Source of the DNA: Pseudomonadota bacterium
Lineage (GTDB): Bacteria > Pseudomonadota > Gammaproteobacteria > Steroidobacterales > Steroidobacteraceae
Assembly: GCA_037200975.1 (NCBI GenBank)
Contig: JBBCGI010000001.1
Coordinates: 434,001 to 498,000 of the forward strand
Direction of reading: 5' to 3'
DNA: 64,000 nt
Position numbers and translations under genes: made by a program. The notes beneath the pieces were generated by a model. The model worked only from the letters and a program-made list of their open reading frames with translations. It had not been told where the DNA came from and searched no databases. Of this stretch, positions 13,772 through 22,769 are shown in pieces (within the stretch, counting starts at the first letter, position 1; every line of letters starts with the position of its first letter).

Positions 13772-13827
13772 CCGAAAAGGGGACATGCCTATTTTTCGTC
13801 CGAAAAATAGGCATGTCCCCTTTTCGG
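13772..13827. repeat. perfect 27-bp palindrome (REP/MITE-like, element A)
   Basis: Arms 13772-13798 and 13801-13827 are exact reverse complements with a 2-base centre. Each arm is CCGAAAAGGGGACATGCC followed by TATTTTTCG. The palindrome fills most of the dnaE-accA spacer and starts three bases from the dnaE stop codon (13831). The arm core recurs at 17441 and 17551, on the other side of dnaE. The form is that of inverted pairs of REP sequences mobilised by RAYT (Y1) transposases; no transposase gene lies nearby. Confidence 0.9.
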
Positions 13828-13830
13828 CCT

Positions 13831-16800
13831 CTACCCACTGATTGAAGTGACTCCGGCGCTCACCGGCGGCGGGCTGTAGAGCACGGCGATCCGGCCCCGG
13901 CCCAATAACTTCTCGAGTTCCTCGATCAGCGCCGGCGAGGGCCGGACATTCCATTCGGCGCCGAAGGAATAGGTGCCCTTGGCGACCGCGCCGAAGAACT
14001 GCACGGCGACGTGACAGCCACCGCCTTTGTACTGGGCGAGGACGGCCTGCAATCGATCGAGCGGCAGCGCATCCGTGGACTTCACCTTGAGCACGATGCG
14101 GCGGGCTTCCTTCTCGCGCAGGCGCTCGAGCTCGCTGACCTTGTTTGCGCGCAGCACCCAGGTATTGGCGAACTCGTCGAAACGCAGCTTGCCTTCGATC
14201 AGCAACAGCGAATCCTTCACCAGAATCTCGCGGTACTGCTGGAAAGTTTCGTCGTAAAACCCGACGGCAATGCGGCCGGAATCGTCGTCCAGCAGGATCT
14301 CGGTGCGCGGCCCGCGCTTGCGCAGTTCTTCCACCACCCCGGCGATCGCCACCGGCTTGCCGCCGAAGAAGGCGCGCCCACCCTCGCCGCTCGACTGCGG
14401 TTTTTCCTGCTCGAGGTAATCGGCAATACGCCCGGTGATGAACCTCGGCAGATCGTTGACGAAGCGGTCGATGGGATGCCCGCTGATCGCGCGGCCCAGC
14501 GATTCGCGCTCGGCACGCAGCCGCACGGTGTCCGTCCACTCGGGTTGATCGGGCGTGCGCGCGCGTACCACCTCGGGCACATGCGCGGCGCTCAAGCCGA
14601 AGATGTCGTGCTGGCCGGTTTCGTTGGCCTTGCTGTTCTGCTCGCCCAGCGCCAAGGCAGCGTCCAGCCGGTGCATCAGCGTCGCGCGATTCGTCGCGAG
14701 CCCGTCGAGGCTGCCGGATTTGATCAGGGCTTCGAGCACGCGCCGGTTGACGCGCGACAGATCGAGCCGGCGGCACAGGTCTTCGAGGCTGGTGTAATCG
14801 CCATTCGCCTTGCGTTCGCCGACGATGGCATCGACCGCGCCCTCGCCCACGCCCTTGATCGCGCCCAGCCCGTAACGGATGGTCTTGTCATCGACGACCG
14901 CGAATTCGTACGCCGAGAGATTCACGTGCGGCGGCAACACGGTGAGGCCGACTTCCTTGCGGCAGTCGTACAACATCCCGACTACCTTGTCGGTGTGGTC
15001 CATGTCGGCGCCGAGGACCGCCGCCATGTAGGACGCGGGCTCGTGTGTCTTGAGCCAGCCGGTCTGATACGACAGCAACGCGTACGCGGCCGAGTGCGAC
15101 TTGTTGAAGCCGTAGCCCGCGAACTTTTCCATCAGGTCGAAGATGTGCGCGGCCTGCGCTTCGGGCACGTGGTTCTTGATGGACCCATCGATAAAAATCG
15201 AACGCTGCTTGGCCATCTCCTCGGGTTTCTTCTTGCCCATCGCGCGGCGCAGCAGGTCGGCACCGCCGAGCGTGTAGCCGGCCAGCACCTGCGCGATCTG
15301 CATCACCTGCTCCTGGTACAGGATGACGCCGTAGGTGGGCGCGAGCACCGGCTGCAGCGACGGATGTAGATAGTCGATCGGCGGCGCGTGGGGGTCGTTG
15401 CGGCTGTGTTTGCGGTCGATGAAGTCGCCGACCATGCCCGATTCGAGCGGACCCGGGCGGAACAGCGCCACCAGCGCGATGATGTCCTCGAAGGTGTCGG
15501 GCTTGAGGCGCCGGATGAGGTCTTTCATGCCACGGGATTCCAGCTGGAACACCGCCGTGGTCTTCGCCTCCTGCATGAGCTTGAACGTGGCCGCGTCGCC
15601 CATGGGCAACAACGCGATGTCGAGCAGCGCTTCGCCGCTGCCCGCACGCCGGGCGTTGATGATCTTCACCGCGCGATCGATGACGGTCAGCGTGCGTAAT
15701 CCCAGGAAGTCGAACTTCACCAGGCCCGCGGCTTCGACGTCGTCCTTGTCGAACTGCGTGACGACGCTGCCGCCCTTGTCGTCGGCGTACAGCGGCGCGA
15801 ACTCGGTGAGCTTCGAGGGCGCGATGACCACGCCGCCGGCGTGCATGCCGGCGTTGCGCGTCAGGCCTTCGAGGGACTTCGCGAGATCGATGAGGTTCTT
15901 GATCTCCTCGTCGTCCTTGTAGAGCTTCTTGAGCTCGGGCTCCTTCTCGAGCGCGTCATCGAGCGTGATGCCGAGCTCGAACGGGATGAGCTTGGCGATC
16001 TTGTCGACGTAGCCGTAACCCATGCCGAGCACGCGGCCTACATCGCGCACCACCGCCTTCGCGGCCATGGTGCCGTAGGTGATGATCTGCGAGACGCGTT
16101 CGCGGCCGTATTTCTGCGAGACGTAGTCGATGACGCGATCGCGGCCGTCCATGCAGAAGTCGATGTCGAAGTCGGGCATCGACACGCGTTCCGGATTGAG
16201 GAAACGTTCGAACAGCAGGTCGTACTTGAGCGGGTCGATGTCGGTGATGCCGAGACTGAACGCCACGAGCGAGCCGGCGCCCGAGCCGCGGCCCGGCCCC
16301 ACCGGCACGCCGTTGGCGCGCGCCCAGCGGATGAAATCCGCGACGATGAGGAAGTAGCCCGCGAAACCCATCTGGCAGATGACGCCGAGTTCGCGTTCGA
16401 GGCGCGGGCGGTATTCGGCGATCCGTGCCTTTTGCGCTGCGTCGAAGGCCCGTTCGCGCAATTCGAAACCCGCTTCCGACTCGGCGCGGATGAACGCTTC
16501 GACCGTGACGCCCTCCGCAAGCGGAAAGTTGGGCAGCCGCGATTCGCCGAGCTTGAGCGGCAGCGAACAACGCCGCGCGATCTCCACGGTGTTGCTCAAG
16601 GCCTCCGGGATGTCGGCGAAGAGTTCGGCCATCTCCGGCGCGGAGCGCAGGTACTGGGATTCGGTGTACTTGCGCGGGCGGTTCGGATCCGTCAGCTGCA
16701 GGCCTTCCGAGATGCAGACGCGCGCTTCGTGCGATTCGAAATCGTCGCGCGACAGGAACCGCACGTCGTTGGTGGCCACCACGGGGACCTGCGTCTGCTG

Positions 16801-17367
16801 GCTGATACGCACGGCGGCCGCGACCTGCGTTTCATCCTCGGGGCGCCCCAGGCGCTGCAACTCGAGGTAGTAGCGGTCGCCGAACAGCTGCTGCCATTCG
16901 CGCGCGAGATTGAGCGCGTCGGGCTCGCGGCCGTTGGCGATGGCGCGGCCGACGTCGCCCGCAGGGCCGCCCGACAGGGCGATCAGGCCCTGGGTGGTCT
17001 GCGCGTCGAGCCAGGCGCGGTCGATGAGCGGCACGCCGCGATCCTGGCCTTCGAGGTAGGCGCGCGTGATGAGGTTGGTGACGTTCTGGTAGCCGTCCGG
17101 GTCCTTGCACAGCAACGTGAGCCGCGTCGGCAGCGCGCGTTCGCCGCGGCCGCGCAACAACACGTCCACGCCGATGATGGGTTTGACGCCGTGCTTCAAC
17201 CCCTCGCGGTAGAACTTGACCATCGCGAACAGGTTGTTCTGGTCGGTGACCGCGATCGCCGGCATGCCGAGCTGCGCGGTCTTTTCGACCAGCTCGGGAA
17301 TGCGCACCACACTGTCCTGCAACGAAAATTCGGTGTGCAGGCGCAGGTGGATGAACGCAGGTTGCAT
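13831..17367 (-). CDS. dnaE: DNA polymerase III subunit alpha
   Basis: Catalytic subunit of the chromosomal replicase. The 1178-residue protein contains an N-terminal PHP domain (starting FIHLRLHTEFSLQDS), the family C palm with GPGRGSGAGSLVAF near 340 and the acidic MPDFDIDFC motif near 395, the fingers and tandem helix-hairpin-helix region (RVNRRVLEAL near 865), and a C-terminal OB fold (about 960-1060). Length fits DnaE1. ATG 17367 is chosen over an upstream in-frame codon because MQPAFIHLRLHTEFS is the usual N-terminus. Palindromic repeats flank the gene on both sides. It is upstream of accA on the same strand. Confidence 0.98.
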   Translation of the reverse strand: MQPAFIHLRLHTEFSLQDSVVRIPELVEKTAQLGMPAIAVTDQNNLFAMVKFYREGLKHGVKPIIGVDVLLRGRGERALPTRLTLLCKDPDGYQNVTNLITRAYLEGQDRGVPLIDRAWLDAQTTQGLIALSGGPAGDVGRAIANGREPDALNLAREWQQLFGDRYYLELQRLGRPEDETQVAAAVRISQQTQVPVVATNDVRFLSRDDFESHEARVCISEGLQLTDPNRPRKYTESQYLRSAPEMAELFADIPEALSNTVEIARRCSLPLKLGESRLPNFPLAEGVTVEAFIRAESEAGFELRERAFDAAQKARIAEYRPRLERELGVICQMGFAGYFLIVADFIRWARANGVPVGPGRGSGAGSLVAFSLGITDIDPLKYDLLFERFLNPERVSMPDFDIDFCMDGRDRVIDYVSQKYGRERVSQIITYGTMAAKAVVRDVGRVLGMGYGYVDKIAKLIPFELGITLDDALEKEPELKKLYKDDEEIKNLIDLAKSLEGLTRNAGMHAGGVVIAPSKLTEFAPLYADDKGGSVVTQFDKDDVEAAGLVKFDFLGLRTLTVIDRAVKIINARRAGSGEALLDIALLPMGDAATFKLMQEAKTTAVFQLESRGMKDLIRRLKPDTFEDIIALVALFRPGPLESGMVGDFIDRKHSRNDPHAPPIDYLHPSLQPVLAPTYGVILYQEQVMQIAQVLAGYTLGGADLLRRAMGKKKPEEMAKQRSIFIDGSIKNHVPEAQAAHIFDLMEKFAGYGFNKSHSAAYALLSYQTGWLKTHEPASYMAAVLGADMDHTDKVVGMLYDCRKEVGLTVLPPHVNLSAYEFAVVDDKTIRYGLGAIKGVGEGAVDAIVGERKANGDYTSLEDLCRRLDLSRVNRRVLEALIKSGSLDGLATNRATLMHRLDAALALGEQNSKANETGQHDIFGLSAAHVPEVVRARTPDQPEWTDTVRLRAERESLGRAISGHPIDRFVNDLPRFITGRIADYLEQEKPQSSGEGGRAFFGGKPVAIAGVVEELRKRGPRTEILLDDDSGRIAVGFYDETFQQYREILVKDSLLLIEGKLRFDEFANTWVLRANKVSELERLREKEARRIVLKVKSTDALPLDRLQAVLAQYKGGGCHVAVQFFGAVAKGTYSFGAEWNVRPSPALIEELEKLLGRGRIAVLYSPPPVSAGVTSISG

Positions 17368-17440
17368 GGCGCGCGAGTTTACACACGAACGCGCACATAA
17401 AATGGCTTGCAAATCTTTCAGAGACTTGCGCGACGATTCA

Positions 17441-17571
17441 AAAAGGGGACATGCCTATTTTCTGAAAAAGGGGACAGATCTATTTTTCGTGGACGTTGGT
17501 TCGAGTGCGGCATAGCTACCGGCGAAAAATAGATCTGTCCCCTTTTTCAGAAAATAGGCATGTCCCCTTTT
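17441..17571. repeat. perfect 49-bp inverted repeat built of two nested REP-like elements (A and B)
   Basis: Arms 17441-17489 and 17523-17571 are exact reverse complements around a 33-base loop. Each arm joins element A (AAAAGGGGACATGCC, also found at 13772) to element B (AAAAAGGGGACAGATC followed by TATTTTTCG). Element B alone forms the inner palindrome and A the outer one, as if one repeat pair was inserted inside another. The right arm overlaps the DUF3034 stop codon (17570-17572); the left arm lies 73 bases from the dnaE start. It resembles RAYT-mobilised REP pairs. It may also act as a strong RNA hairpin ending the DUF3034 transcript. Confidence 0.92.
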
Positions 17572-18469
17572 AGAGGCTGCCTTGGAGCGACAGGTACCAG
17601 CCGTGCTGGCCCGGCATCATCGCGATGCGTCCGATATCTGCGTACGCCGCCGTGATCGAAAAATGCTTGCTCGGAAAATACGCGGCGAAAACGTCCCAAT
17701 AGTCCTGCTCTTCGAACGAGCCGAGGTTGTCGGGCTTCTGCCGATACTCCGCGCCCACGACGACGGCATCACTGACGAACATCGCCGCGCTGAATTCGGC
17801 GTTGACGCTGCGGCTTTGCTGGCGATCGCCGCCAAAACCCAGGATTCCGAACTGGTTGCCGCGCGTCGCGCGCAGCGTCGCATTCACCAGCCAGGTGCGC
17901 GAGAACGGGCCGGCAAGATAGACCTTGGTAGCCGCGAGATACACATCGACGTCCTCGGCATCGCGCGCGCCGAGCAACGCGGGCACGAAATCGAAATCCC
18001 GGTTCTTCTTGTACTGCAGTCCGAGCGACAACTGCGGATACCAGCGATCCTGGTCGTACACGGCGTCGCCGAGCAGGCGCACTTTCGCGCCGATCACATC
18101 CACAGCGATGGATTCACCCGGAATGATCTCATCGAGATCGAAACGCTGCCGCGCGTACGACACCTCCACGCGATCGTGGAAACCGACCGCGACCCCGCAA
18201 CTGCGCAGATCGAACTTCTGCACGCGGGCTTCCGTGCAAAAGCCGCTGCCACCGGTCTGCGCGTCACTGCCGAGCCCCGCGATCAACGCCCACGGCACCG
18301 CGCCACCGCCCGCGCTGCCTTCGATCTGCGCGACGCCGCCCGTAGCCAGCAACCGGCTGCTGCCCGCCAACGCGTCCGGCGCAATCCACGCGAACGCCAC
18401 GATCGGCAAAACCTGCAGGATCCGGCGGGCGAAGCGGCGGCCGCGCGAGCCGCGTGAAACATCGTTCAA
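17570..18469 (-). CDS. DUF3034 family protein, probable outer-membrane barrel
   Basis: A 299-residue exported protein matching DUF3034: the LLATGGVAQIEGSAGGG start of the mature part, VGFHDRVEVSYARQRFDL, GAKVRLLGDAVYDQDRWYP, and LGLQYKKNRDF motifs are all there. A basic n-region (RGRRFARR) and hydrophobic core precede ALA near residue 35. Alternating beta-strand patterns and a C-terminal YLSLQGSL suggest an outer-membrane barrel. I prefer TTG 18469, placed nine bases after GGAGGA; an in-frame ATG at 18541 would add 24 residues before the signal. It diverges from the haemoglobin/cupredoxin/EAL operon. Function is unknown. Confidence 0.82.
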   Translation of the reverse strand: MNDVSRGSRGRRFARRILQVLPIVAFAWIAPDALAGSSRLLATGGVAQIEGSAGGGAVPWALIAGLGSDAQTGGSGFCTEARVQKFDLRSCGVAVGFHDRVEVSYARQRFDLDEIIPGESIAVDVIGAKVRLLGDAVYDQDRWYPQLSLGLQYKKNRDFDFVPALLGARDAEDVDVYLAATKVYLAGPFSRTWLVNATLRATRGNQFGILGFGGDRQQSRSVNAEFSAAMFVSDAVVVGAEYRQKPDNLGSFEEQDYWDVFAAYFPSKHFSITAAYADIGRIAMMPGQHGWYLSLQGSL

Positions 18470-18662
18470 GACTGCGATTCCTCCCCGAAGTGCGATAGGG
18501 ATCACACTCGGCACGGCGCCCTTGTCGGGGCACTCAAACAACGGCGCGAATTGTCCGCAAATCGCCGCGGAAATTCCGTGAAGGTGTGAGTCGTTTCAAT
18601 GGCCGGAGCGGCTGCCGGATCGATAATTCCACCCCGTCAGATTCAGCTCCGGGGTTCCCACC

Positions 18663-19136
18663 ATGGCGTCTCGCAGACCCATCCTCGCGACGATGTTCGT
18701 GGTCGCCGCGGGCTCGTTTTGTCCTGCGGCCTTTTCACAGGCCCCGCCCGCGCCGGTACCGCCGCCGGCGATCGCCCCGCCCGGTTCCTTGTACGAACGC
18801 CTCGGCGGCACCGCGAAGGTCTCGGCCTTCGTCAATCAGACGATCGATGTCGTCGCCGCGAATCCGAAAATGAATCAGTCCTTCGACAAAGTGAACCTGC
18901 AGCACGTCAAGGACATGCTCATCGAGCAGATCTGTTCGCTGACCGGCGGCGGTTGCAAATACACGGGCGACACCATGCGCGACGTCCACGCCGGCCATCA
19001 CATCGGCAACGCGGAATTCTTCGCTCTCGTCGAGGTGCTGCGCGACGCGATGCGCGCGCAGCAGGTGCCCTTGTCGGCACGTAATCAATTACTGGAAATC
19101 CTCGCCCCGATGAAACGGGACGTGGTCAAGCTCTGA
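18663..19136 (+). CDS. exported group 1 truncated haemoglobin
   Basis: A 157-residue protein with a signal peptide (basic start, hydrophobic run, cleavage near AFSQA at about 27) and a proline-rich linker before a group 1 truncated haemoglobin domain (about 41-150). Family marks: SLYERLGG start, NPKMNQSF, KYTGDTM, and the proximal-histidine region DVHAGHHIG. The B10 position usually held by tyrosine looks replaced (FVNQTIDVV), and two cysteines flank the E-helix turn (ICSLTGGGCKYTG). Export is unusual for trHbs, which are mostly cytoplasmic. It is first in an operon with a cupredoxin and a GGDEF-EAL protein. Role is probably gas or redox sensing; unproven. Confidence 0.85.
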   Translation: MASRRPILATMFVVAAGSFCPAAFSQAPPAPVPPPAIAPPGSLYERLGGTAKVSAFVNQTIDVVAANPKMNQSFDKVNLQHVKDMLIEQICSLTGGGCKYTGDTMRDVHAGHHIGNAEFFALVEVLRDAMRAQQVPLSARNQLLEILAPMKRDVVKL

Positions 19137-19137
19137 C

Positions 19138-19749
19138 TTGGCACGCCACCTCAAAAGCGGATTTGCGCTCGTGGCCTTGTTCGCGAACGGCCTGCCGTGC
19201 GCGGCCGCCGCCGACCTCTCGCTCGAAGTGCGTGACGGCAGCGGCAGGCCGGTCGCCGATGCGGTGGTTTTCGCAGCGCCGGTTGGCGGCGCGGCGCCCA
19301 CCGTGAAACCCCACGCGCGCGCGCTCATCGACCAGGTGAACAAGGAGTTCGTGCCGAAGGTCAGCATCTTCCAGGCCGGCACTTCCGTGTTCTTCCCGAA
19401 CAGCGACAACATCCGCCATTCCATCTACTCGTTCTCGCCGGCGAAGGTCTTCACGACCAAGCTGTACTCCGGCCGCGAGGCGGCCCCGATCACGTTCGAT
19501 CACGCCGGCGTCGTCGTGCTCGGCTGCAACATCCACGACGCGATGGTGGCGTGGGTCTACATCGTCGACACGCCGTGGTTCGGCAAGAGCGGCGCCGATG
19601 GCATCGGCACACTCAGGGGCCTGCCCGACGGTGAATACACGATCACTGCCGCGGCGCCCGCGCAGAATCTGCCGCCGAAAGTCCTCACGCTGCGTGTCGA
19701 GGGTGGCGCGGCCCTGCACAGCTCCATCTCGTTGCAGGCTGCGCCGTGA
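19138..19749 (+). CDS. exported cupredoxin-like protein ('methylamine utilization protein' type)
   Basis: A 203-residue periplasmic protein with a signal peptide ending near CAAAA (about residue 25). The mature part resembles plastocyanin/azurin-like proteins filed as methylamine utilization proteins. Potential type 1 copper ligands are His94 (DNIRHS), Cys130, His133 and Met136 (GCNIHDAM). A C-terminal Ig-like segment (GLPDGEYTITAAAP) follows. There is no methylamine pathway gene here, so the traditional name is probably misleading. TTG 19138 follows the haemoglobin stop by one base, and the downstream gene starts at TGATG, so all three genes are tightly coupled. Copper binding and redox partner are inference. 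Confidence 0.8.
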   Translation: MARHLKSGFALVALFANGLPCAAAADLSLEVRDGSGRPVADAVVFAAPVGGAAPTVKPHARALIDQVNKEFVPKVSIFQAGTSVFFPNSDNIRHSIYSFSPAKVFTTKLYSGREAAPITFDHAGVVVLGCNIHDAMVAWVYIVDTPWFGKSGADGIGTLRGLPDGEYTITAAAPAQNLPPKVLTLRVEGGAALHSSISLQAAP

Positions 19750-22142
19750 TGCGCATCCAGCGGCTGCAGACGCGCATCATCGTCTTCTTCGTCGCGCTGC
19801 TGGTGCTGGTGCAGGTGCTGGCGTTCACTTTCGTGAACGCTGCGAACTCGCGCAACGCCCAGACCAAGGTCGCAGAAGAACTCAACATCGGCCGGCGCGT
19901 GTTCGCGCGGCAGCTCGAGCAGAACGCCGAGAAGCTCAAACTATCCGCGCGCGTGCTGGCGGCCGATTTCGCCTTCCGCGAGGCGATCGCGACGCACGAC
20001 ACCGGCACGATCGCCTCGGTGCTGGCGAATCACGGCGCGCGCATCGGCGCCGACGCAATGGTGTTCGTCGACCTCGACGGCACCGTCATCTCCGATACGC
20101 TGCGGCCGCAAAGCGAAGCGCGGCCATTCGAATATCCCGCCCTCATCAAGGCCAACAAGAATGGCGGCAGCGCCAGCCTGGAGGTGCTCGACGGCCGCGC
20201 GTTCCAGCTCGTGGCCGTGCCGGTTCTCGCGCCGCTGCCGATCGGCTGGGTGGTCATGGGTTTCGCGGTGGACGACACGCTGGCGCGCGATCTGCGCCAG
20301 CTCACCGAACTCGAGGTTTCATTCGCGCTCGACGCGCCGGCGGGCTGGCGCGTGCTGGCTTCGACGCTGAGCAAGGAGGACCAGCAGGCCCTGCTCGAGG
20401 CGATGCCGCCGCGCTCGAGCGAGGTGACGCGCCTCGTCATGAACATCGCCAACGACGATCACCAGGCCCTGGTGATCCCGCTCGACGACAACGACGACGC
20501 GCGCATCGTCGCGGTGCTGCATCGCTCGCTAGGCAGCGCGCTCGCCGCCTTCGAACGGCTGCGCTTCACGCTGATCGTGCTGGCGGGATTCAGCCTCGTG
20601 TTGTCCATCGTCGGCAGCGTCGCCGTGGCGCGCAACATCACGCGGCCGCTCGAGACGCTGGCCAACGCCGCCGCGCGCATCGAACACGGCGACTACGTCG
20701 CCCCCGTCAACGTGCAGCGCGCGGACGAGATCGGCGTGCTGGCGTCGAGCCTCAATCACATGCGCGGCGGTATCGCCGACCGCGAGAAACGCATCCTCAA
20801 GCTGGCCTACGAAGACCCTCTCACCGATCTCGCCAATCGCTCGCGTTTCAACAACACACTCGAACAGGCCATCGCCCAGTGCAACCAGGGCGGCGTCCGG
20901 CGCACCATCCTCATGATGGATCTCGATCGCTTCAAGTACGTCAACGACACGCTGGGTCATGGCGTCGGCGATCATGTGTTGCGCGAGGTGAGCCTGCGGT
21001 TGCAACACACCGTCGGCGACGCAGAGTGCATCGCGCGCCTGGGCGGCGACGAATTCGCCATTCTCGTCAATCACACCGGCCAGGCTGATCTGACCGAGAC
21101 GGCGCGCCAGATCATCACGGCGCTCGAGATGCCCATCCTGTACGAAGGCCAGCCGCTCGACGTCGGCACCAGCATCGGCATCGCGCACCATCCCGAACAC
21201 GGTCGCGATGCGCAGACGCTGCTGCGTAATGCCGACATCGCCATGTACGCCGCCAAGCGCAACAAGACCGGTTTCGCGGTGTACGACCCGCACTACGACA
21301 CCAGCCAGCAGGAACATCTGTCGCTGCTCGGTGAATTGCGCCGCGCGGTGGAGCAAAACGAGCTGCGCCTGCACTACCAGCCGAAGGTCTCGCTGCACTC
21401 CGCGCACGTCAGCGCCGTCGAGGCGCTGATCCGCTGGGAGCATCCGGCCCGCGGGCTGGTGCCGCCCTCGCAGTTCATCCCGTTCGCCGAACACACCGGT
21501 TACATCAAACTACTGACCCGCTGGGTGATCCGCGAGGCCGTGCGCCAGTGCGGCGCGTGGCTGCGCGAAGGGCTCACGTTGCAGGTCTCTGTGAACATCT
21601 CGGCACGCGATCTCATGAATCGCGACCTGCCCGAACACGTGGCCGCGCTGCTGGCCGAACACGACGTGACGCCCGGGCTGCTGTGCCTGGAAATCACCGA
21701 GAGCGGTTTCATGGAAGACCCGGCGCATGCACAGAAGGTGCTCGATCGCCTGGCCGAACTCGGCGTGAAACTGTCGATCGACGACTACGGCACGGGCTAC
21801 TCGTCGCTGTCGTACATCATGAAGCTGCCGGTCCAGGAGCTGAAGATCGACCAGTCCTTCATCTCCCGCATGGCGACCGATACGGAGATTTCCACCATCG
21901 TGCGTTCGACCATCGATCTCGGCCACAACCTCGGGCTGCAGGTCGTGGCCGAAGGCGTCGAGGACAGCGCGGTGTGGAACATGCTGCGTTCGCTGGGCTG
22001 CGACGAGGCGCAGGGCTACTACATGAGCAAACCACTCGAACCCGCGGCGCTCGCCCGCTGGATTCGCGCGAATCACGGCACCTTTGAAGCGCCGCAGCCC
22101 GCGACTGATACCGCCCGGAGCGTGGGCGCGCAGGCGCGCTAG
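19749..22142 (+). CDS. membrane-bound GGDEF-EAL cyclic-di-GMP enzyme with periplasmic sensor
   Basis: A 797-residue signalling protein. TM1 lies at about 11-30, a periplasmic CHASE/Cache-like sensor at about 31-265, TM2 at about 268-292, HAMP at about 292-345, then GGDEF and EAL domains. The GGDEF motif is intact (LGGDEFAIL near 430), as is the EAL signature (EALIRWEHP near 558), with ESGFMED, DDYGTGYSSL and IDQSFI all in place, so it could both make and break c-di-GMP, with phosphodiesterase activity very likely. ATG 19749 overlaps the previous stop in TGATG. The two upstream exported genes suggest that its sensor reads a periplasmic haem or copper signal. It ends one base from the convergent rnhB. 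Confidence 0.93.
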   Translation: MRIQRLQTRIIVFFVALLVLVQVLAFTFVNAANSRNAQTKVAEELNIGRRVFARQLEQNAEKLKLSARVLAADFAFREAIATHDTGTIASVLANHGARIGADAMVFVDLDGTVISDTLRPQSEARPFEYPALIKANKNGGSASLEVLDGRAFQLVAVPVLAPLPIGWVVMGFAVDDTLARDLRQLTELEVSFALDAPAGWRVLASTLSKEDQQALLEAMPPRSSEVTRLVMNIANDDHQALVIPLDDNDDARIVAVLHRSLGSALAAFERLRFTLIVLAGFSLVLSIVGSVAVARNITRPLETLANAAARIEHGDYVAPVNVQRADEIGVLASSLNHMRGGIADREKRILKLAYEDPLTDLANRSRFNNTLEQAIAQCNQGGVRRTILMMDLDRFKYVNDTLGHGVGDHVLREVSLRLQHTVGDAECIARLGGDEFAILVNHTGQADLTETARQIITALEMPILYEGQPLDVGTSIGIAHHPEHGRDAQTLLRNADIAMYAAKRNKTGFAVYDPHYDTSQQEHLSLLGELRRAVEQNELRLHYQPKVSLHSAHVSAVEALIRWEHPARGLVPPSQFIPFAEHTGYIKLLTRWVIREAVRQCGAWLREGLTLQVSVNISARDLMNRDLPEHVAALLAEHDVTPGLLCLEITESGFMEDPAHAQKVLDRLAELGVKLSIDDYGTGYSSLSYIMKLPVQELKIDQSFISRMATDTEISTIVRSTIDLGHNLGLQVVAEGVEDSAVWNMLRSLGCDEAQGYYMSKPLEPAALARWIRANHGTFEAPQPATDTARSVGAQAR

Positions 22143-22769
22143 TCAGTCGTCGAGGACGGCCGCGTCGCTCGAGCGCACCGGCGCGAAGCTGCGCCGGTGC
22201 AGCGGGCTCGGGCCCAGCGAATTCAGCGCCGCCACGTGTGAACGCGTCGGGTAACCCTTGTGCCCCGACAGCGAGAAGCCCGGGTAACGGCCGTCGAGCT
22301 CGCGCATCAACGCGTCGCGCGTGGTCTTGGCCAGGATGGACGCGGCGCTGATCGACGGGACGCTGGCGTCTCCCTTGATGATCGCCTCGAACAGGCAGTC
22401 GAACCCCAGCCCCTCCGCGCACGGACAACGGTTGCCGTCGACGAACACCTGCTGCGGCGGCACGCGCAGTCCTAACAAGGCGCGGCGCATGGCCAGCATG
22501 GTCGCCTGCAGGATATTGATGCTGTCGATCTCCTCGGCGTCCGCCCAGGCCACCGAGTAACACAACGCCCGTTCGCGGATCAGCAGCGCCAGCCGCTCGC
22601 GTTCTTCCGGCTCGAGCACCTTCGAATCGGCAAGGCCGCGGATCGGCCGGGCATGATTGAGGATGACCGCCGCGGCGACCACGGGCCCCGCAAGCGGCCC
22701 CCGCCCGGCTTCGTCGACACCCGCGACGCGTAATCGCACGCGGATCTTCGTGCCCGTATCGGGTTGCAT
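22143..22769 (-). CDS. rnhB: ribonuclease HII
   Basis: Cleaves the RNA strand of RNA-DNA hybrids and starts ribonucleotide excision repair. The 208-residue protein shows the catalytic acidic motifs: [20 protein letters not shown] with the first Asp-Glu pair, the [16 protein letters not shown] segment, and the VDGN strand and [13 protein letters not shown] block. ATG 22769 is chosen since [22 protein letters not shown] gives the usual N-terminal length; sequence further upstream belongs to lpxB in another frame. It ends the lpx operon, eight bases after lpxB. In relatives dnaE follows directly; here the DUF3034/haemoglobin module has come between. Confidence 0.97.

Follow-up and report, generated by a model that had tools for sequence, protein, structure and literature searches.

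A cupredoxin and a dCache_3 membrane receptor as the recurring pair of a candidate bacterial sensing system

Introduction

A report on YfiBNR (TpbB) describes an outer-membrane part, a periplasmic regulator, and an inner-membrane HAMP-GGDEF receptor with a periplasmic redox input; YfiR and the YfiN input domain are kept where GGDEF is swapped for GGDEF-EAL pairs, HPT domains, or histidine kinases (PMC3375315). Here, we analyze a four-gene module in a 64,000-nucleotide stretch of a Steroidobacteraceae genome (GCA_037200975.1, contig JBBCGI010000001.1, positions 434,001 to 498,000), hereafter the window. The module encodes a DUF3034 protein, an exported truncated haemoglobin (globin), an exported cupredoxin, and a membrane receptor. 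We favor the reading, with a probability of roughly 0.56, that a dCache_3-HAMP receptor takes its periplasmic input from the exported cupredoxin, a protein dedicated to this role. The four genes are as follows.

17570..18541, minus strand: DUF3034 protein (PF11231, 338.9 bits, Pfam)
18663..19136, plus strand: exported group 1 truncated haemoglobin (Bac_globin, 45.1 bits, Pfam)
19138..19749, plus strand: exported cupredoxin, TTG start (ligand set and PDB profile)
19746/19749..22142, plus strand: membrane receptor, dCache_3-HAMP-GGDEF-EAL (Pfam)

The open reading frame list and a check of the DNA place these genes where an earlier sequence-only reading of the window had put them, with the same layout. 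The DUF3034 gene is transcribed divergently from a tight plus-strand trio, in which the globin stop is separated by a 1-base gap from the cupredoxin gene, and the cupredoxin and GGDEF-EAL genes share a TGATG overlap. The receptor likely starts at the ATG at 19749. The DUF3034 start is ambiguous between the TTG at 18541 and a later start upstream of the signal peptide. A scan of 18380-18780 found no sigma-70-type promoter. The genome holds a single DUF3034, a single Bac_globin, and a single sensor-region match (E up to 0.001).

The module resembles YfiBNR in its outer-membrane part, its periplasmic protein, and a kept input with changing outputs. The differences are substantial. YfiBNR has YfiR (DUF4154) and a PAL/OmpA-type part, neither of which Pfam matched in the module's four proteins; its outer-membrane part is a lipoprotein, whereas that of the module is a predicted integral barrel; and the module has a dCache_3 input domain in its receptor and an added globin. 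The YfiN equivalog model NF007423 gives the window receptor 176.8 bits against a cut-off of 325, over residues 263-504 only. Because the module has no DUF4154 match and falls below the NF007423 cut-off, we read it, by analogy, as working like YfiBNR without belonging to it. Two YfiR-family (DUF4154) proteins lie elsewhere in the same genome, on contig C1 (C1:4387500 and C1:223032).

The pairing of a periplasmic partner with a membrane sensor is also familiar from LuxP-LuxQ, NspS-MbaA, CinA/CinRS, and PrrC-PrrB, in which the partner informs or accompanies the sensor. The partners differ in kind: LuxP and NspS bind solutes, PrrC belongs to the SCO proteins, and CinA is acted on by its kinase instead of serving as an input. 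The module cupredoxin is like amicyanin and other small cupredoxins in its H...CxxHxxM ligands and its PDB profile match; it differs from them in the weak carboxypeptidase-regulatory-like match that follows and in having a receptor partner. Similarly, the globin shares its family match and proximal His with group 1 truncated haemoglobins but is exported and carries a Cys pair. We found no description of the gene set in the open-access literature, where the portions that mention DUF3034 are a retron figure legend and a Streptomyces table row, neither of which concerns the set. Portions of two further reports describe globin-cytochrome fusions in cable bacteria (PMC11976967) and, in iron oxidizers, a number of truncated globins and numerous GGDEF/EAL genes, with no link drawn between the two in those portions (PMC3770913).

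The recurring pair

A cupredoxin-alignment scan of 84,980 species genomes returned at least 596 stretches (595 confirmed), of which the best 80 loci, picked by cupredoxin similarity only, were analyzed. A protein with the sensor lies within 2 kb of the cupredoxin in 76 of the 80 and an EAL protein in 65. The four sensor-less loci are L057, which ends at a contig edge, and L062, L090, and L102, which do not. Within 5 kb of the cupredoxin, DUF3034 occurs at 31 loci and the globin at 33. The core is therefore not the full set of four genes, since DUF3034 and the globin form an accessory pair found in only ~40% of the 80 loci. The four families of the envelope system proposed by the sequence-only reading do recur together, but the constant part is smaller. 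On this sequence comparison, what usually stays is the cupredoxin with its receptor.

The converse search gave a similar picture. Used alone, the window's sensor region (19749-20609, HAMP excluded) matched 27 places in a class sample of 274 genomes, own genome included. By-hand comparison with the cupredoxin places put 22 of these within 3 kb of a cupredoxin-family match, against a chance expectation of 0.07. Six of the 22 score only 21-30 bits and belong to five long PAS-GGDEF-EAL receptors and one kinase receptor. By record titles, cupredoxin loci also occur in Nitrospirota, Nitrospinota, Acidobacteriota, Verrucomicrobiota, Methylomirabilota, and Rokuibacteriota, placements that rest on draft or metagenome-assembled contigs and may be misassigned.

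The predicted copper site of the cupredoxins is well conserved. Over a set of 113 loci, a non-random sample gathered through cupredoxin, DUF3034, sensor, and plasmid matches, the copper ligands are almost invariant (His 113/113, Cys 113/113, second His 112/113, Met 110/113), and the window cupredoxin, with an amicyanin-type CxxHxxM loop, has the full His, Cys, His, Met set of a type 1 copper site. Pfam gives this protein only CarboxypepD_reg, at 23.7 bits and below the cut-off of 32.3; the family profile reaches PDB entries for blue-copper proteins, 5fc9 at E 8.6e-7 and amicyanin at E 2e-4. The sensor, by comparison of 98 rows, shows another pattern: its periplasmic region conserves D74 (100%), T88 (98%), R99 (95%), and N95 (92%), and conservation stays below 60% for every His, Cys, and Met.

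A label of 'methylamine utilization protein' occurs on plasmid records of the cupredoxin. The sequence-only reading had set this label aside, and we likewise rejected it as a function. The genome had no match to methylamine dehydrogenase (PF06433, PF02975), a check that lacked a positive control because the control genomes matched neither model, so absence is not shown.

Some cupredoxins have other neighbors. The genome's own second cupredoxin (L171, 8442-10408 region, C1 ~813 kb) is followed by a different barrel-like protein, with no sensor seen. On Sinorhizobium meliloti pSymA (L189, 5695-6414), a distant, receptor-less cupredoxin lies near a SCO protein, hemA, groL, and a cbb3 oxidase subunit. 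A DUF4394 protein directly upstream of the cupredoxin in Comamonas and Alishewanella (L188, 4853-5803; L090, 7115-7963) is possibly another partner.

Exchangeable outputs

Pfam assigns the window receptor dCache_3 (PF14827, 75.2 bits against a cut-off of 25.7), HAMP (52.4), GGDEF (157.2), and EAL (263.7), with a weaker CHASE4 match (28.1 bits, cut-off 26.2) that overlies dCache_3 in the periplasmic part. Its catalytic motifs are intact, as previously read from the sequence (GGDEF, EAL, EITES, DDYGTG, LKID, AEGVE, QGY). Across 81 EAL receptors searched by regular expression, exact GGDEF is present in 42 (SGDEF in nine more) and all four EAL motifs in 67. Phosphodiesterase activity thus looks, by motif retention, like the more conserved output. 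Five Pseudomonas receptors (L079, L097, L100, L101, L105) combine weak GGDEF domains (41-56 bits) with good EAL domains, which suggests a phosphodiesterase-only output there.

GGDEF-EAL is the commonest output. By Pfam, the receptor carries instead a class III cyclase at nine loci (L035, L109, L038, L048, L074, L092, L173, L176, L177; 9/9 scanned), a histidine kinase at two (L078, L175), a Ser/Thr protein kinase at five (L021, L178, L179, L181, L186), and PAS-GGDEF-EAL at L191-L195. At L025, the globin and cupredoxin are followed by an extracytoplasmic function (ECF) sigma factor and an RskA-type anti-sigma factor, with no receptor. Of the 16 receptors with a cyclase or kinase output, 11 have dCache_3 above the Pfam cut-off. 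When the output labels are mapped on a tree of 113 cupredoxins, cyclase requires four changes, Ser/Thr kinase two, and histidine kinase two; well-supported branches alone force one change per output label, and several tree rows are long. The sequence-only reading had inferred a chain in which a gas or redox signal at the haem/copper pair would change cyclic di-GMP (c-di-GMP), but cyclases, kinases, and a sigma pair occur at related loci. Judged by domain content, c-di-GMP is dispensable to the design because these other outputs occur.

Co-occurrence of the four families

The sequence-only reading would have been refuted, by its own first criterion, had the four families not co-occurred elsewhere. 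They do recur together in other genomes, and their co-occurrence is far beyond chance. DUF3034 is present in 15 of the 274 genomes, own included; in enlarged neighborhoods, the cupredoxin lies beside it in 10 and an exported globin in nine. In the genome's own family, DUF3034 occurs in eight of 60 genomes. Outside the own genome there are eight DUF3034 places in the family: six have both globin and cupredoxin, one spans 3.8 kb that contain a globin but no cupredoxin, and the last is truncated where its contig stops. All four genes also lie on annotated plasmid records of Caballeronia (beta) and Novosphingobium (alpha). Among the analyzed loci are also some from common laboratory organisms, Methylophilus methylotrophus (L083) and Herbaspirillum (L032, L056).

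Two of the profiles (A1, A2) were built from DUF3034-selected loci, which makes their own match numbers for the 274 genomes circular in part. Less circular tests are the window proteins alone, which already matched partners in short DUF3034 loci, the sensor region alone (compared by hand with the A1 places), and the sensor count in the 80 cupredoxin loci.

The accessory pair and other barrels

DUF3034 and the globin travel together. Both are present in 42 of the 113 loci, and DUF3034 stands alone only at L021, whose genome has a related exported globin ~10 kb away. Among the 80 loci, all with DUF3034 carry the globin; the globin lacks DUF3034 at L035 and L040, where the cupredoxin frame begins only 182 and 593 bases from a contig end. 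The 42 paired loci fall into 17 with the order cupredoxin-sensor-DUF3034-globin, 17 with the window's divergent order, four with DUF3034-globin-cupredoxin-sensor, one with DUF3034 and globin diverging together, and three without a sensor.

Against the PDB, the globin profile matches group 1 truncated haemoglobins (E 2.8e-24). The proximal His is present in 44/44 module globins and the two Cys in 44/44 and 43/44; the Cys pair fits a periplasmic disulfide. By a crude leader rule, 41 of the 44 pass, L035 being cut off and L031 and L190 slightly below. Of 21 other globins in the sample, four have the complete Cys pair, and each of these reads as having a signal or lipoprotein leader; one further exported globin (L165) lacks the pair. 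Exported or lipoprotein globins with the same pair also occur outside the module at L182, L183, and L184, the last without the proximal His. By HbN numbering, positions B10/E7/E11 are apolar in 41 of the 44 module globins, and Tyr B10 occurs in two of the 44. The window globin has Ile B10, Val E7, and Leu E11 and lacks the Tyr B10/polar pocket of the O2/nitric oxide (NO)-dioxygenase type. We rejected the apolar pocket as a module-specific trait, as it is common in the 21 related non-module globins.

DUF3034 is predicted to be an outer-membrane barrel. Its AlphaFold2 model is a 12-strand barrel with a predicted local distance difference test (pLDDT) score of 83.5, and Foldseek matches include FapF (best, E 3.6e-7, query template modeling (TM) score 0.40), OmpG, and NanC (0.53), over a range of ~0.40-0.53. 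A second barrel family adjoins the cupredoxin in 21 loci, none with DUF3034. Its model has 12 long strands (pLDDT 92.1), and matches include EstA, OmpG, and a COG4313 channel (TM 0.60-0.62). Five of its members were scanned with Pfam: three gave no match, one a sub-threshold barrel match, and one just reached the Phenol_MetA_deg cut-off (22.0 versus 22). A third family, barrel-like by reading, lies near cupredoxins in five loci (L171, L110, L175, L180, L087), with one member slightly below the Pfam BBP2 cut-off. The predicted barrel fold, the globin leaders, and the conserved copper and haem ligands are all compatible, at the level of sequence and model, with the envelope signaling proposed from the sequence, although the chain itself goes beyond them.

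Weighing the readings

Sequence comparison establishes that the pairing is constant, that the cupredoxin keeps its copper ligands while the sensor has no conserved metal-ligand residues of its own, and that outputs are exchangeable. From these we infer contact between cupredoxin and sensor, copper or redox state as the signal, and the direction of effect. The state of the cupredoxin (with or without copper, and with the metal as Cu(I) or Cu(II)) would set the receptor, which in the window would switch GGDEF-EAL activity and hence c-di-GMP. Where the DUF3034 barrel and the exported globin are present, as here and at ~40% of the 80 loci, they would extend this input, the barrel perhaps serving as a small-molecule route across the outer membrane and the globin as a gas- or redox-sensitive haem, both feeding the same receptor.

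Several observations weigh against this reading. Four of the 27 sensor places are without a nearby cupredoxin match (G117:C35, G171, G037, G125; three GGDEF-EAL proteins and one HD protein), and a fifth, G147, cannot be judged, as both of its matches lie at contig ends. Family cupredoxins occur without the sensor at L062, L090, L102, L171 (the own second copy), L185, and L189. Pfam scores dCache_3 below the cut-off in L175 and gives no such match for L048 and L078; in L191-L195 the domain is missing or below the cut-off. The window's N-terminal region, HAMP included, matches L048, L078, and L175 strongly, at 216, 268, and 125 bits; L179 and L186 show sub-threshold dCache_1 instead, and their likeness to the window region is weak (26 and 28 bits). 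The Met ligand is missing in three distant cupredoxins, and the second His falls in an alignment gap in one. Five of the 15 DUF3034 genomes (L026-L030) have neither cupredoxin nor globin beside DUF3034, L030 being cut at the gene by a contig end and L027 and L028 lying on contigs under 9 kb. Finally, partial Mantel tests single out no cupredoxin-sensor link (0.30 given EAL, n = 80), and cupredoxin-EAL given sensor scores higher (0.60, n = 80). The case for direct cupredoxin-sensor contact is weakened because this distance-matrix test is unspecific. For the globin, the corresponding values are 0.45 with the sensor given EAL versus 0.02 with EAL given the sensor (n = 35), a weak hint.

The higher cupredoxin-EAL value also speaks for the leading alternative. 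The direction may be reversed, with the membrane enzyme as a local controller of c-di-GMP, cyclic nucleotide, or phosphorylation and with cupredoxin, globin, and barrel as its envelope targets or as merely co-expressed proteins, for instance a small extracytoplasmic chain for electron transfer or NO/O2 protection. The tight operon arrangement suits such a scheme, globin and cupredoxin could make a redox chain, and the sensor-less Sinorhizobium cupredoxin relative sits beside a SCO protein in a cbb3/sox neighborhood. Yet an effector set needs no constant type of periplasmic sensor under swapped cytoplasmic outputs, and the cupredoxin-sensor pair occurs without globin and DUF3034 in 45 of the 80 loci (some cut by contig ends). 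We consider this reversal unlikely.

A second alternative starts from dCache_3, which is a ligand-binding fold. The domain could sense a small molecule of its own, admitted by the barrel, with cupredoxin and globin protecting or processing that ligand (e.g., by removing NO, O2, or copper). The conserved polar set D74, T88, R99, and N95 would suit ligand binding of this kind, as would the several different barrels that accompany the pair. This account does not explain the regular presence, in different phyla and beside different outputs, of a cupredoxin whose ligands are intact, and we regard it as improbable. That an old operon was simply carried together without a shared function is very improbable: labels do cluster on the cupredoxin tree, where many deep branches are weak, but the DUF3034 label requires 15 changes (five forced by well-supported branches), outputs are swapped while the pair stays, several gene arrangements exist, and the whole set is an rnhB-dnaE insertion in one genus.

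Insertion between rnhB and dnaE

The features flanking the module are as follows.

13831..17412 (start approximate), minus strand: dnaE, flank of the insertion (open reading frame and synteny)
17438..17574, no strand assigned: hairpin element with 52-nucleotide arms, 98% complementary, on the dnaE side and overlapping the DUF3034 3' end
22143..22769 (start approximate), minus strand: rnhB, the other flank (open reading frame translation and comparison with rnhB in relatives)

Searches of 21 genomes retrieved rnhB loci from 13 relatives besides the own genome, and seven genomes gave no match. In 12 of the 13, including G275 and G276 of the same genus, rnhB adjoins the dnaE start without the module; two genomes with adjacent rnhB-dnaE, G283 and G285, carry DUF3034 at another site. 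In the thirteenth relative, G274 of the same genus, a GGDEF-EAL gene (87.5% identity) adjoins rnhB and DUF3034 (83%) adjoins dnaE on a different contig. The insertion between rnhB and dnaE that had been proposed from the window alone therefore holds, for part of the genus.

The hairpin arms carry GGGGACA...ATTTT, which we take to be REPIN-like, and a second, related motif pair lies at 13775-13824, near the dnaE 3' end.

Conclusions

Together, the recurrence of the four genes and the constancy of the pair suggest that bacteria have a family of sensing systems that is as yet undescribed. A broader version of our preferred reading, in which the cupredoxin is the receptor's periplasmic input, can be offered only tentatively, and we find it more doubtful than not. 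Blue-copper proteins of several phyla would then be exchangeable periplasmic co-receptors for one receptor family that reaches all major output classes (c-di-GMP, cyclic nucleotide, and His and Ser/Thr phosphorylation), with a receptor-less sigma version; the redox or loading state of the copper site would be read, set by an exported globin and fed by a dedicated outer-membrane channel in some lineages. If the cupredoxin is indeed such an input, DUF3034, the so-called methylamine utilization proteins, and exported truncated globins would gain a function, and a single periplasmic input design would be read by many signaling enzymes. Bacterial sensing of copper or redox state outside the cytoplasm would thereby become a directly testable question.

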